In this document: piece after piece, positions 49,043 through 54,683 of the stretch
Position numbering within the stretch: position 1 is the first letter of the stretch
Layout: every line of letters begins with the position of its first letter
NCBI GenBank assembly: GCA_027451885.1
Contig: DAIDHX010000052.1
Coordinates: forward strand, 1-64,000
DNA from: Planctomycetales bacterium
GTDB lineage: Bacteria; Planctomycetota; Planctomycetia; Isosphaerales; Isosphaeraceae
Reading direction: 5' to 3'
DNA length: 64,000 nucleotides
The notes under the pieces: model-generated
The model's database searches: none
What the model was told of the DNA's origin: nothing
The model's input: the letters and a program-made list of their open reading frames with translations, nothing else
Translations under genes and position numbers: made by a program

Positions 49043-50107
49043 TTACTGTTTCACGAGCGTGGCGACGGAAATATGCGGCCAGTCGATGTCCAGGAAGTGT
49101 AGCAGCACCGTCTGGGTGTACTGCAACTGGAAGAAATGCGAGCCGTCGTCCTGTTGTACCTTCTCGATCCAGAAGATCGCGTCCATCCGGGTCGCGTTGG
49201 CGTTTTTGGTCAGGAACGGAATGTTGAGCACGCCGGTCGGGAAGAGCGCCTGGTCGATCCCTCTGGGGCTGGTCGAGACGTCGAGCACGACGGTCTCGAC
49301 GATGTTCTGGCCGACGATGGCCGCCTTGAGGGCGAGGTTTGGATCGTCGAGGAATGGCTGCGGGAAATCGGGCGGAGGCGGTGCGACCGGGAACCGAGCA
49401 AGGTACGCCGGGGTGATCGGGTCGGGATTCCGGGGCGGGTTCGCGATGGGCCTGGTGCTGGCGACCCCGATTTTCGGCCCTCCCTTCACGAGCGGGATTG
49501 GCTGGCCGATGGCCATCACCGAGGTCCCGTGGGGGATGGAGCCCTGGCGCACGATCGTTTCGCCCAGCAAGGGAACCTGGGTTGCCGGCACGCGCAGCCA
49601 GAAGCCGGGCTCGATGTGCATTGCGCTTGAGTCGAGCGCGTTCGAGATGCGCTGAAGGTAGCTGAAACCGTGGAGTTTGATGTCTTTTTGGCCGTTCGAG
49701 CCGCGGTTCGGCACGGGTCCGCCGATCGGCGTGAAGGCCAGGGTCTCGATGGTGGCGTCGACCTTGACGCGGAACGGTTGAGGTCCCGCCAGGTTGTCGA
49801 AATCGGGCAGGGAGATGACGTTGAACCCGCGCCCGACCCAGGTGCCGCCGAGCTCCCGGAGTGGGCCGAGGTCGCAGAGGCGCTTCGCTTCCGCGGCGGC
49901 GCCTCGGATTCCCGCGGGCCTGCCTTTGGCCTGAGCGGGCTGGGCCTGGGGCGGGCCCAGTAACTCTGTACCTGCGGCCGCTGCGCCCGCGCCTGCCGCC
50001 GCTGCGCCCGCGCCTGCCGCCGCTGCGCCCGCGCCCGCCGCCGCTGCGCCCGCGCCTGCCAGAAACCCGCGCCGAGTCGCATGAGTTCCAACCGTTGCAC
50101 GCCTCAT
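49043..50107 (-). CDS. Tat-exported protein with heme-binding (lipocalin-like) barrel pattern
   Basis: About 354 aa. The N-terminus has a twin-arginine motif (THATRRGFLAG) followed by an extremely regular Gly/Ala stretch made of four identical 7-residue units (GAGAAAA). The mature part opens with LGPLRELGGTWVGRGFNVI and contains LHGFSYLQRISNALDSSAMHIEPGFW and GSIPHGTSVMAIG, a pattern I associate with proteins annotated as heme-binding beta-barrels; the evidence for heme is weak. ATG 50107 has GGGAGG 6-7 nt upstream; the frame extends to 50245 but without a signal. It is divergent from the riboswitch-controlled cluster. Confidence 0.65.
   Translation of the reverse strand: MRRATVGTHATRRGFLAGAGAAAAGAGAAAAGAGAAAAGAGAAAAGTELLGPPQAQPAQAKGRPAGIRGAAAEAKRLCDLGPLRELGGTWVGRGFNVISLPDFDNLAGPQPFRVKVDATIETLAFTPIGGPVPNRGSNGQKDIKLHGFSYLQRISNALDSSAMHIEPGFWLRVPATQVPLLGETIVRQGSIPHGTSVMAIGQPIPLVKGGPKIGVASTRPIANPPRNPDPITPAYLARFPVAPPPPDFPQPFLDDPNLALKAAIVGQNIVETVVLDVSTSPRGIDQALFPTGVLNIPFLTKNANATRMDAIFWIEKVQQDDGSHFFQLQYTQTVLLHFLDIDWPHISVATLVKQ
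49977..50060. repeat. Four tandem 21-bp repeats inside a signal peptide
   Basis: Four contiguous units of GCCGCTGCGCCCGCGCCTGCC-like sequence (one base difference in the third). They encode four GAGAAAA heptads in the hydrophobic region of the Tat signal peptide of the overlapping minus-strand gene. Confidence 0.9.
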
Positions 50108-50414
50108 CGAAGCCTCCCCGCGTGTTGAAGTTCGATCGATGCCGCGCGACGTCCCAGACGCGAGACGCGCGTTGCGTTCGGCAAAACAACAGCCCTCCGT
50201 TCCAGACGCTTGAACATCAGCGGGACGGCACCGGAACCGAAACATTCCGATGCGCTCTGCATCCGCAACGTTTGGTGTTCAAGATTTTGGAATCCGCCGT
50301 CCGGGTGCCGGGGCGTGATGCGGCGTTCCCTCGTCCCGGACAACCCGGGCCGGCCGGCTCTTGACGTCGGGCAGGGCGGGGGGATATCCTTTTGACATTG
50401 ATAATTCGGTGCGC

Positions 50415-50568
50415 ATCTTATCCAGAGTGGCTGAGGGACGGGCCCGACGACGCCACAGCAACCGGTTCACCACCGTGGTGAACGCTGGTGCTAACTCCCG
50501 CCCTGTGCAATCCCGCGCTGTTTGCTCCCGCGAGCAGCCGGCGGTCGTGCTGATGGGGCAGATAAGAT
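50415..50568 (+). promoter_or_regulatory. SAM-I riboswitch (S-box leader)
   Basis: P1 is an 8-bp pairing of ATCTTATC (50415-50422) with GATAAGAT (50561-50568). Inside are the S-box landmarks: CAGAG after P1, P2 GTGGC/GCCAC enclosing GAGGGACGGGCCCGACGA (kink-turn and pseudoknot loop), GCAACC, P3 GTTCACCA/TGGTGAAC, the conserved GGTGCTAACTCCCGCCC and GGGGCAGATAAG closing P4/P1. A second strong hairpin (50569-50602, GGTCTCGAGCC against GGCTCGCTCGACC) follows at once and may be the expression platform. A GATAAT at 50400-50405 would place the transcription start near P1. It should lower expression of the following gene when S-adenosylmethionine is high. Confidence 0.9.
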
Positions 50569-50754
50569 GGTCTCGAGCCGCCCCATCCTGGCTCGCTCGA
50601 CCCTCCCTTATCCCATACGCAGCCTCATCAAACGGTGCAACCCGCCAGGGTTTGGCGGGGCGCCTGGTCGTCTCCCGCGAAAGAGGCGATCGACCGAGTC
50701 TGGATCGAGATGGGCGCGGAACCACTCGAGTTCGAGGGAAGGGAGACTGATCCC

Positions 50755-52020
50755 GTGTCGGCGGAACGTGTGCTGGGACTCAAGTGCCGGCTGTGCGGCA
50801 AGCAATACCCCAAGGAAGCGCTCAACTTTTGCACGGACGATTTCGGGCCGCTCGAGGTCGCTTATGACTACGAGGCCATCGCCCGGACGTTTAGCCGGGA
50901 GGCAGTTGCCACGCGCCCGCAGACGATGTGGCGTTACTGGGATCTGCTGCCGATCGACGGCGAGCCGACGGTGGGCCGGCATGTGGGGCGCACGCCGTTG
51001 ATCCGGGCCGATCGGCTGGCGAAGGCGCTCGGGGTTGGGGAGCTTTACATCAAGAACGACGCGGTCAATCACCCGTCGCTGTCGTTCAAGGATCGCGTGG
51101 TGGCCGTTGCACTTTCGAAGGCGGTGGAATTTGGGTTTCAGACGGTCGGCTGCGCGTCGACTGGGAACCTGGCCGGGAGCGTGGCGGCGAACGCGGCCGC
51201 GGCCGGGCTGGACGCCTATGTGCTCATTCCGGACGGGCTCGAGCAGGGCAAGGTTTTAGGCGCGATGATCCATGGCGCCAGGGTCGTGGCGATCGAAGGC
51301 AATTATGACCACGTGAACCGGCTTTGTTCGCAGATTGCGTTCCGGTTCGGCTGGGGCTTTGTGAATGTGAATCTGCGGCCGTTTTACGCCGAGGGATCGA
51401 AGTCGATGGGCTTCGAGATCGCGGAGGACCTGGGCTGGCGCGTGCCCGATCATGTGGTGGCGCCGATGGCCGGCGGCAGCCTGATTGGCAAGATCCACAA
51501 GGCGTTCAAGGAGCTGGAGATCCTGGGGGCGCTTGAGAACCCGGTGAAGACGCGGCTGCATGGGGCGCAGGCGACGGGGTGCAACCCGATTTCGGCGACT
51601 GTGAAGAGTGGCGCGAGCAAGGTCAAGCCGGTCAAGAATCCGAACACGATCGCCAAGAGCCTGGCGATCGGCGACCCGGCGGACGGCTACTTCGCCTCGC
51701 AGCTTATCCGCGACACGGGGGGTTGGAGCGACGACGTCGACGACGATTCGATCATCGACGCGATGCGGCTGCTGGCCGAGACCGAGGGGATCTGGGCCGA
51801 GACGGCGGGCGGGGTGACGCTGGCCGTGACCCGCAAGCTGATCGAGGACGGGCGGATCGACCGCGACGAGTCGATCGTCGTTTGCATCGCGGGCAATGGG
51901 CTCAAGACGCAGGAGCCGTTGCTCGAGCGGATGGCGCGGCCGACGGTCATCAAGCCGAGTCTCGAGGCGTTCGAGGCCCTGCTCGAGCGCGACGCCGCCC
52001 CCGCGCTTGCCACTGTCTAG
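50755..52020 (+). CDS. thrC: Threonine synthase-family PLP enzyme under SAM riboswitch control
   Basis: About 421 aa, fold-type II. A small N-terminal Cys module (LKCRLCGKQYP, NFCTDDFGPL) precedes the PLP domain. The PLP Lys is in HPSLSFKDRVV (near 108), the phosphate loop is GGSLIGK, and STGNLAGSVAANAA is the substrate loop. The pattern is that of threonine synthase, which acts on O-phosphohomoserine. However, a SAM-I riboswitch lies directly upstream and sulfur-carrier genes lie downstream, so a sulfur-inserting (homocysteine-forming) role is conceivable. GTG 50755 has GGGAG 9 nt upstream; ATG 50710 is an alternative with a weaker site. Confidence 0.82.
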   Translation: MSAERVLGLKCRLCGKQYPKEALNFCTDDFGPLEVAYDYEAIARTFSREAVATRPQTMWRYWDLLPIDGEPTVGRHVGRTPLIRADRLAKALGVGELYIKNDAVNHPSLSFKDRVVAVALSKAVEFGFQTVGCASTGNLAGSVAANAAAAGLDAYVLIPDGLEQGKVLGAMIHGARVVAIEGNYDHVNRLCSQIAFRFGWGFVNVNLRPFYAEGSKSMGFEIAEDLGWRVPDHVVAPMAGGSLIGKIHKAFKELEILGALENPVKTRLHGAQATGCNPISATVKSGASKVKPVKNPNTIAKSLAIGDPADGYFASQLIRDTGGWSDDVDDDSIIDAMRLLAETEGIWAETAGGVTLAVTRKLIEDGRIDRDESIVVCIAGNGLKTQEPLLERMARPTVIKPSLEAFEALLERDAAPALATV

Positions 52021-52078: not shown

Positions 52079-52348
52079 ATGCCTGTTGTTCGTATTCCCA
52101 CCCCGCTGCGCCCGCACGCCGGCGGTGTTGACAAGCTCGACCTTGCGGGGAGCACCGTCAAGGAGCTCTTCGACCGCCTGGGAGAAGCCCACCCTGCGCT
52201 TCGGGAGCGGTTGTTCGATGGCGAGGAGCTGCGGCGATTTGTGAATGTCTACGTCAACGACGAGGACATTCGCTATCTCGAGGACCTGGAAACGCCCGTT
52301 GCGCCCGGCGACGAGGTGAGCATCATTCCGGCCGTGGCGGGGGGCTGA
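52079..52348 (+). CDS. MoaD/ThiS-like sulfur-carrier protein
   Basis: 89 aa, beta-grasp fold. The sequence runs VRIPTPLRPHAGG, TVKELFDRLGEAHPALRERLF, RFVNVYVNDEDIRYLEDLETPV, GDEVSIIPAVAGG and ends exactly in Gly-Gly, the residue pair that is adenylated and thiocarboxylated in this family. No peptide follows the Gly-Gly, so no JAMM-type processing is needed. It resembles CysO/MoaD2-type carriers rather than the short ThiS of thiamine synthesis. ATG 52079 has CGGAG 9 nt upstream. The MoeB-like E1 gene comes next. Confidence 0.88.
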   Translation: MPVVRIPTPLRPHAGGVDKLDLAGSTVKELFDRLGEAHPALRERLFDGEELRRFVNVYVNDEDIRYLEDLETPVAPGDEVSIIPAVAGG

Positions 52349-52450: not shown

Positions 52451-53488
52451 ATGCCGGTGGATTCGCTCGAACGCTACAGTCGCCAGATGCGCTTTCCCGC
52501 CCTGGGCAAGGCCGGGCAGGAAGCGCTTTGCAAAAGCACCGTGGCCGTTTGCGGCTGCGGCGCGCTCGGTACGGTGCTGGCCAATCATCTCGCCCGGGCG
52601 GGGGTGGGCAAGCTGCGGATCATCGACCGCGACTTCATCGAAACGCATAACCTGCAACGGCAGATTCTGTTCGATGAGGACGACGTGGCCTCCAACCTGC
52701 CCAAGGCTGAGGCCGCCGCGCGCAAGCTCCGCGCGATCAACTCCACGATCACGATCGAGCCGGTCGTCACCGACATTGATCACACGAATATTCTCGCGCT
52801 CGTGAGCGACGCCGACCTGATTCTCGACGGCACGGACAACTTCGAGACGCGGTATCTGATCAACGACGCGGCGGTGAAGCTGGGCAAGCCGTGGATCTAC
52901 GGCGGGGTGATCGGCTCCGAGGGGCAGACGATGACGATCCTGCCGGGCGAGACGCCATGCCTGCGGTGTCTGATCGAGACAGCGCCTCCGCCGGGGATGA
53001 CGCCCACGTGCGAGACGGCGGGTGTGCTGGGACCGGCGGTGTCGGTGATTGCGTCGTTCGAGGCGATCGAGGCGATCAAGATCCTTTCGGGGGCGCGTGC
53101 AGCGCTCAACCCGTGTCTGATCATGGTGGACGTGTGGGACTGGACGTTCCGGCAGCTCAAGATTGCGAACTTGCTGGGCAAGGTGGACTGCCCCTGCTGC
53201 AAGGGGCGCAAGTTCGAGTGGCTCGAGGGGGGGCAGGGCTCGCACACGACGACGCTCTGCGGCCGCAACGCGGTGCAGGTGGCCGTGCGCAGGGACGAGC
53301 CGCTCGATTTCCCTGAGCTGGCCTCGCGGCTGGCGAGCTTCGCGGAGGTCAGGCACAACGCGTTCATGCTTCGGTTCGCGGCCGAGGGGCACGAATTCAC
53401 CGTGTTCCCAGACGGCCGGGCCATCATCAAGGGAACCAACGACGTCACAAGGGCGCGCACGCTTTATTCTCAGTTCATTGGAAGCTGA
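52451..53488 (+). CDS. MoeB/ThiF-family E1-like adenylyltransferase
   Basis: About 345 aa. It activates the C-terminal Gly of a sulfur carrier with ATP. Present are ERYSRQMRFPALG, the nucleotide loop CGCGALGTVLANHLARAG, the Asp/Arg set in DRDFIETHNLQRQ, DGTDNFETRYLINDA, the zinc pairs CLRC and CPCC, and a candidate sulfur-accepting Cys in TCETAGVLGP. The C-terminal 80 residues after the second CxxC form an extra domain with a conserved look but no rhodanese Cys loop, so it differs from MOCS3-type enzymes. The start ATG 52451 has TAGGAGGT directly upstream, the strongest ribosome-binding site in the cluster. Confidence 0.9.
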   Translation: MPVDSLERYSRQMRFPALGKAGQEALCKSTVAVCGCGALGTVLANHLARAGVGKLRIIDRDFIETHNLQRQILFDEDDVASNLPKAEAAARKLRAINSTITIEPVVTDIDHTNILALVSDADLILDGTDNFETRYLINDAAVKLGKPWIYGGVIGSEGQTMTILPGETPCLRCLIETAPPPGMTPTCETAGVLGPAVSVIASFEAIEAIKILSGARAALNPCLIMVDVWDWTFRQLKIANLLGKVDCPCCKGRKFEWLEGGQGSHTTTLCGRNAVQVAVRRDEPLDFPELASRLASFAEVRHNAFMLRFAAEGHEFTVFPDGRAIIKGTNDVTRARTLYSQFIGS

Positions 53489-53528: not shown

Positions 53529-54683
53529 GTGATTTATCTCGACAACGCCGCCACCAGCTTTCCCAAGCCGGAATCGGTCTACCAGGCGCTCGACCGGTTC
53601 GCCCGCACCAGCCTGGCGAACCCGGGTCGGGCAGGGCACAGGATGGCCGTCTCGGCCGAGCGCACGCTCGACGCCGCCCGGCACGCGCTCAACCAGTTTT
53701 TCCAGGGGGACGCGCCCGAGCGCTGGGTGTTCACGCTCAACGCCACCGACGCGCTAAACATGGCCATCAAGGGTGTGATTCGGGAGGGTGATCACGTCAT
53801 CACGTCGGATCTTGAGCATAACTCTGTGAGCCGGCCGCTGCGGGCGCTCGAGGAGGGGGGCACGATCACGCTGACGCGGGTCGCGTCGCGCGGGGGGTAT
53901 CTTGATCCCGAGGACATCCGCCGCGCGATGGGGCCAAGGACCCGGCTGGTGGCGACGACGCATGCCGCGAACGTGCTGGGCACGGTGCAGCCGATCGAGG
54001 CGATTGGCAAGATTGTGCGTGAGGCTGGGGCGCTTTACCTGGTGGACGCTGCGCAATCGGCGGGGGTGGTGGCGATCGACCTGCGGACGGCGGCGGTGGA
54101 CATGCTGGCGTTTCCGGGGCACAAGGGGCTTTACGGGCCGACGGGGGTGGGTGCGCTTTATGTGGGGCCGCGGACCGACGGCCACATTGAGCCCTGGCGT
54201 GAAGGGGGCACGGGGGGTGATTCCTCGAGCCCAGCGCAGCCGCGGCAACTGCCTTACTTGCTCGAGGGGGGCACGCCGAACGTGCTGGGCGTCGCGGGCC
54301 TGGCCGCGGGGCTCGACTGGGTCGCGCGGCATGCGCCCGATGCGCTCCGCAAGCACGAGGTCAACCTGCTCCAGATCGTGGTCGACTGGGTGAACGAGTC
54401 GGGCGACTGGAAGATCGCCGGGCGCTGGGAACCCGCCACGCACGTGGGCGCTTTATCGCTCGTCACGCCCGAGGGGATCACCCCTCAGGACGTGGCCGCG
54501 ATCCTCGACACCAGCTTCGAGATCGCCGTGCGCCCGGGCCTGCACTGCGCCCCGTACATTCACCGGGCGCTTGGCACATTTCCCGATGGAACGATCCGTG
54601 TTTCGCCGGGTGCGTTCTCAACTCCGGAAGAGATTCTAAAATTCACTGCGTCGCTCGCCGAGATCACTAGCGGAGTGCTCTGA
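53529..54683 (+). CDS. Class V aminotransferase, probable cysteine desulfurase
   Basis: About 384 aa. NifS/SufS-like PLP enzyme: MIYLDNAATSFPKPESV at the N-terminus, DLEHNSVSRPL, VDAAQSAGVV, PLP Lys in FPGHKGLYGPTG (near 200), and the persulfide-forming Cys in RPGLHCAPYIHR (near 340). This architecture (short, with FPGHKGL) is that of the cysteine-desulfurase-like family that provides persulfide sulfur. It would donate sulfur to the activated carrier protein encoded two genes upstream. GTG 53529 has GGGAG about 7 nt upstream and lies 40 bp after the MoeB-like gene; the frame is open far upstream inside that gene. Confidence 0.88.
   Translation: MIYLDNAATSFPKPESVYQALDRFARTSLANPGRAGHRMAVSAERTLDAARHALNQFFQGDAPERWVFTLNATDALNMAIKGVIREGDHVITSDLEHNSVSRPLRALEEGGTITLTRVASRGGYLDPEDIRRAMGPRTRLVATTHAANVLGTVQPIEAIGKIVREAGALYLVDAAQSAGVVAIDLRTAAVDMLAFPGHKGLYGPTGVGALYVGPRTDGHIEPWREGGTGGDSSSPAQPRQLPYLLEGGTPNVLGVAGLAAGLDWVARHAPDALRKHEVNLLQIVVDWVNESGDWKIAGRWEPATHVGALSLVTPEGITPQDVAAILDTSFEIAVRPGLHCAPYIHRALGTFPDGTIRVSPGAFSTPEEILKFTASLAEITSGVL

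Follow-up and report, generated by a model that had tools for sequence, protein, structure and literature searches.

A SAM-I riboswitch in planctomycetes precedes a gene annotated as threonine synthase that most likely encodes a MetM-type homocysteine synthase

The 64,000-nt stretch of a Planctomycetales genome analyzed here (contig DAIDHX010000052.1, positions 1 to 64,000; hereafter the window) contains a SAM-I riboswitch that is ordinary in kind; the gene that it targets belongs, despite a misleading name, to methionine synthesis, and the methionine pathway in question was described only recently. As judged from sequence, this gene, annotated as threonine synthase, most likely encodes a homocysteine synthase (MetM) working with the sulfur carrier MetO. 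The riboswitch probably provides SAM feedback on homocysteine synthesis, acting as a translational OFF switch on metM-metO. The features of the locus are listed in Table 1.

The covariance-model scan of the window yielded an RF00162 match with a score of 72.5 bits (gathering threshold 44.4, E-value 4.9e-15), which covers the whole model (positions 1-108, P1-P4 included); no second SAM-I turned up in the 6.18 Mb genome. The P1 helix has 8 base pairs without a mismatch, with 9 bp possible, and P4 is enlarged by an insert of about 50 nt. The earlier note had described a SAM-I aptamer, a strong hairpin directly after P1 and about 150 nt without a T-tract before the start codon, and this layout was borne out: the hairpin adjoins P1 with no base between them, its end lies 152 nt from the GTG at 50755 (186 nt when counted from the end of P1), no terminator-like site was found in 50200-50800, and the leader has no T-tract. 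The functional leader extends to 50755, past the limit of 50602 set by the earlier note. The GTG start is backed by relatives, in which both the Shine-Dalgarno (SD) sequence and the GTG are conserved; in-frame starts at 50635 and 50710 lack a conserved SD and were rejected. An open reading frame for a heme-binding (FMP-type) protein (49043-50245, minus strand) is divergent from metM; a short GC-rich tandem repeat at 49975-50060 encodes a segment rich in Ala and Gly close to where this protein begins.

Table 1. Features of the SAM-I - metM - metO locus in the window.
Feature	Position	Strand	Basis and remarks
Promoter-like site TTGACG-18-TATCCT	50361..50390	+	Consensus scan 9/12, weak; ~25 nt upstream of P1
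SAM-I aptamer	50415..50568	+	RF00162 and fold; P1 50415-50422 / 50561-50568; extended P4 ~50500-50559
Hairpin directly after P1	50569..50602	+	-15.3 kcal/mol, z -3.1
Proposed anti-SD CUCCCUU	50603..50609	+	Exact complement of 50739-50745; overlaps anti-P1; inverted repeat I11; SD/anti-SD matching in relatives
Anti-P1 CUUAUC	50607..50612	+	Copy of P1 5' strand; pairs with 50561-50566
Hairpin CCCGCCA/TGGCGGG	50641..50659	+	Inverted repeat I9; -14.2 kcal/mol; without T-tract
Anti-5'-strand UCUGGAU	50699..50705	+	Exact complement of aptamer 50420-50426; inverted repeat I8
Shine-Dalgarno region AAGGGAG	50739..50745	+	GGGAG-type SD before GTG conserved in relatives
metM-type gene (annotated threonine synthase), 421 aa, GTG start	50755..52020	+	TIGR00260; tree; clade residues
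metO-type sulfur carrier gene, 89 aa, product ends AVAGG	52079..52348	+	PF02597, NF041918; ThiS family
ThiF/MoeB-type adenylyltransferase gene	52451..53488	+	PF00899; conserved gene order
Cysteine desulfurase-like gene (start approximate)	53529..54683	+	TIGR01977 339.6 bits, below cut-off 377

The product of the target gene scores 282.8 bits against the curated threonine synthase model TIGR00260 (cut-off 167.1), and this model does not separate MetM from threonine synthase. In a tree of 32 proteins, where some rows are long-branched and single placements less sure, 25 rows (the window protein, its relatives and that of Nonomuraea) were set apart from five solved threonine synthases with support of 100/99. 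With these enzymes (PDB 2zsj, 1uim, 6cgq, 2d1f and 1e5x) the window protein shares the PLP fold type II, the SFKDR and ASTGN motifs and 30-38% identity, whereas its clade is separate, is cleanly split from them at 22 diagnostic positions, and is distinguished by a carrier partner and SAM-I control. The window genome encodes another ThrC, which carries the threonine-synthase residue at 17 of the 22 positions and the clade residue at 0. Thus, by both tree and residues, the window protein falls outside the threonine synthases; it clusters with the protein of an actinomycete SAM-I - metM - metO unit, that of Nonomuraea. The objection of the earlier note, that a threonine synthase is not a standard S-box target, therefore proves to be a naming artefact, since the MetM-type clade and the adjacent MetO-type carrier mark the gene as a methionine-pathway target.

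In Wolinella succinogenes, HcyS, HcyF and HcyD together with MetY form a protein thiocarboxylate route to homocysteine. The predicted window system resembles it in carrier-dependent homocysteine synthesis and in a ThiF-like activator, but the PLP enzyme adjoining the carrier belongs to PF00291, not to PF01053, being ThrC-like and not MetY, and the window carrier already ends in GG. The gene order of the window, a ThrC-like gene followed by a GG-ending carrier gene, is that of MetM/MetO. According to PMC12172450, Hasebe et al. (2024) identified Streptomyces MetM as a homocysteine synthase that uses O-phosphohomoserine, metO is a sulfur-carrier gene, and metM of Streptomyces albulus has an upstream SAM riboswitch. 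By this description, the window is like S. albulus in its SAM riboswitch, putative ThrC-like homocysteine synthase and adjacent carrier; it differs in being from a planctomycete, in the thiF-like and often desulfurase-like genes behind the pair, and in that the enzyme activity is here a prediction from sequence. The ThiF/MoeB-type protein likely activates MetO, and the desulfurase-like protein, whose gene is present at 36 loci of the order, is a possible sulfur source. At one Myxococcota locus (L070), a MetO-like carrier encoded 54-566 nt after metM has about 80 residues beyond the GG, NIL-type-like by eye, and is followed by a pair of CysK-like genes and one for a JAB-like protease; this protease may be required to free the GG end of the carrier.

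Other homocysteine routes were checked by searches for MetX, MetA, ThrB, TIGR02535, PF01053 and JAB. MetA was found in none of the 45 genomes of the order, and near full-length MetX-like proteins in 10 of them; the window genome (a 98% complete draft) gave only weak hydrolase matches to MetX, which was judged by bit scores, its curated cut-off being missed by control genomes too. Homoserine kinase is present in the window genome (TIGR02535, 494 bits against a cut-off of 446), so O-phosphohomoserine should be made; the acylhomoserine route was not seen. The only full-length Cys/Met PLP enzyme of the genome (20180-21409, minus strand) scores below every NCBIfam cut-off, its best models being methionine gamma-lyase and O-succinylhomoserine sulfhydrylase; its presence counts against the MetM reading. 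On another contig of the genome (C109, 7588-8885) cysK adjoins a JAB-type protease gene, an arrangement reminiscent of the mycobacterial CysO system, and the carrier may take part in making cysteine as well as homocysteine.

Two other functions of the enzyme have to be weighed. In Mycobacterium tuberculosis, CysO, CysM and Mec form a carrier-based system of cysteine synthesis. The window carrier is closely similar to CysO (PDB 3dwg chain C) and, as noted above, a JAB protease is encoded beside cysK elsewhere in the genome, so that the PLP enzyme and its carrier could be imagined to make cysteine like CysM with CysO; we regard this as very doubtful, however, given that the enzyme is ThrC-like rather than CysK/CysM-like and is predicted to be SAM-controlled, that CysK-type and CysK/M-like genes sit elsewhere in the same genome, and that a SAM signal points to methionine. 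In plants, SAM activates threonine synthase and diverts O-phosphohomoserine to threonine. A true threonine synthase switched on by SAM in this way would agree with the TIGR00260 score above the cut-off and with the in vitro threonine synthase activity of a related ThrC from Microcystis (PMC12172450), but it seems to us highly improbable in a genome whose other ThrC bears threonine-synthase residues, for a gene whose sulfur-carrier partner is conserved; moreover, SAM-I also stands, as identified by eye, before a metK-like gene in one other genome (L233) and before a DUF39-like gene in another (L215), which fits repression of methionine genes.

SAM-I was found in 43 of the 45 genomes of the order, in all 43 upstream of the same ThrC-like gene at a distance of 146-395 nt. 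The carrier is visible at 40 loci; L143, L147 and L151 make up the remainder, and each ends at a contig edge inside the ThrC-like gene. Both genomes without SAM-I also lack this class of ThrC, and look like cases of missing genes or contigs. A 4 kb contig (L132) has the order metM-metO-thiF-SAM-I-metM start, with the carrier and ThiF genes upstream of SAM-I; this could reflect either a tandem copy or the assembly. In another genome (L140) a second SAM-I precedes a truncated MetM N-terminus running into a ferredoxin-like stretch, either a degenerate copy or an assembly join. Two metagenome-assembled genomes titled Candidatus Kuenenia stuttgartiensis (L020 and L021) have contigs that match genomes from the taxonomic order of the window, so that their titles look wrong.

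Alternative structures that tie P1 to an output were found downstream of the aptamer, and they have comparative support. Pairing of the P1 3' strand GAUAAG with the anti-P1 element extends the hairpin after P1 to 50561-50612 (-19.9 kcal/mol, z -4.6), and P1 copies of at least 6 nt occur in 15 of the 43 leaders (9 genera), against 0.8 in dinucleotide shuffles. Of the 43 leaders, 28 (12 genera) carry an anti-5'-strand element, 6 nt or longer, at a distance of 55-95 nt downstream of P1, against 2.3 in dinucleotide shuffles; that of the window is displaced to 130 nt after P1. In L155 and L162-L164 the aptamer has UAUCGAGAG in place of UAUCCAGAG, and the downstream anti-5' element is changed to match. 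The SD and anti-SD of the same leader beat all of 5000 swaps in complement length, while in duplex energy 22 of 5000 swaps did as well as the own pairs, relatedness between genomes being only partly controlled in both comparisons. Some leaders lack one or more of these elements. Long P4 inserts appear to have shifted the Rfam 3' ends in 16 relatives, and P1 was re-located there by its pairing. For the window, the ligand-free anti-P1 state was computed to be 2-3 kcal/mol better than P1 with SD sequestration (rough energies for a GC-rich RNA of 370 nt), and binding of the ligand could reverse this difference. The SD was mostly paired in several states predicted by free folding, the proposed ON state included. 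An 8-bp alternative against P4, formed by GAUGGGGC (50552-50559) and GCCCCAUC (50580-50587), was rejected because the anti-P1 state is better by about 6 kcal/mol; also rejected was a second anti-SD, GUCUCCC (50670-50676), which is possible at a cost of about 9-13 kcal/mol. An intrinsic terminator after P1 was also rejected, being absent from the window; a loose scan gave terminator-like sites in 8 of the 43 leaders.

The three types of element, all above controls in relatives, favor translational OFF control by SAM, and the model that we infer for SAM binding and its consequences is as follows. At high SAM, the aptamer would close P1 and leave the anti-SD free to pair with the SD, so that metM, and probably metO and thiF with it, would no longer be translated. 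At low SAM, the P1 3' strand would pair with the anti-P1 element, which overlaps the anti-SD, while UCUGGAU would capture the 5' side of the aptamer; with the anti-SD masked, metM would be translated, and MetM would make homocysteine from O-phosphohomoserine and thiocarboxylated MetO. The earlier note had left the platform as Rho-dependent or another structure. The comparative evidence favors the latter, in the form of anti-aptamer strands and an anti-SD. The former, with riboswitch and target unchanged, would have SAM-bound P1 expose a C-rich leader to Rho, so that transcription ends before the start codon. The leader is indeed long, with no intrinsic terminator in the window, and the 70-nt segment that spans positions 20-90 after P1 is rut-like (on average 41% C and 22% G in the 43 leaders); however, anti-SD segments complementary to a G-rich SD would produce such C-richness as well, and the better pairing of own than of swapped SD and anti-SD would not be needed for Rho control. 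Rho-dependent output therefore appears to us unlikely, although a more serious competitor than either alternative function of the enzyme, and translational control is retained as the preferred mechanism.

Beyond the order, 80 relatives were fetched from public genomes, and in 60 of the 80 the carrier gene starts at most 200 nt after the ThrC-like gene. Exactly one SAM-I was found in 36 of the 50 carrier-bearing genomes outside the order; no SAM-I was found in 14 genomes with the ThrC-like protein, mostly from Nitrospirota, Nitrospinota and Omnitrophota. Among 30 inspected SAM-I loci outside the order, the ThrC-like gene lies downstream in 28 (in one of them behind a cysK); the remaining two are L233 and L215, where by eye SAM-I precedes the metK-like (SAM synthetase-like) gene and the DUF39-like homocysteine gene, respectively, and whose genomes also hold a relative of the window MetM. 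In the actinomycete Nonomuraea gerenzanensis, SAM-I (68.7 bits) is accompanied by a ThrC-like protein with 50.7% identity and a carrier ending in AVAGG. We consider it somewhat more probable than otherwise that SAM-I - metM - metO constitutes a widespread SAM-controlled route to homocysteine, present in Planctomycetota, Verrucomicrobiota, Zetaproteobacteria, Myxococcota and others and hidden by the threonine synthase name, and that in the planctomycete order it is equipped with two anti-aptamer strands and an anti-SD overlapping the anti-P1 element. To our knowledge, a platform of this kind is not known from other SAM-I switches. With the usual SAM-I (S-box, RF00162) the window shares the full aptamer P1-P4 and a methionine-pathway target downstream, whereas the threonine synthase name of this target, the extended P4, the long terminator-less leader and the two anti-aptamer strands with the overlapping anti-SD set it apart.

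Price et al. (2018; PMC5764234) stated that at least one further homocysteine pathway awaited discovery and that some pathways were absent from databases. The present analysis adds to the recently described pathway its occurrence in planctomycetes, the expression platform and how broadly the SAM-I - metM - metO unit is distributed. It explains an odd-looking S-box target and points to how methionine is likely made in a group where a homoserine acyltransferase is not seen in the majority of genomes. It also suggests that many proteins annotated as threonine synthase are homocysteine synthases, for which the riboswitch, the sulfur-carrier neighbor and the 22 residues together provide a simple re-annotation test.
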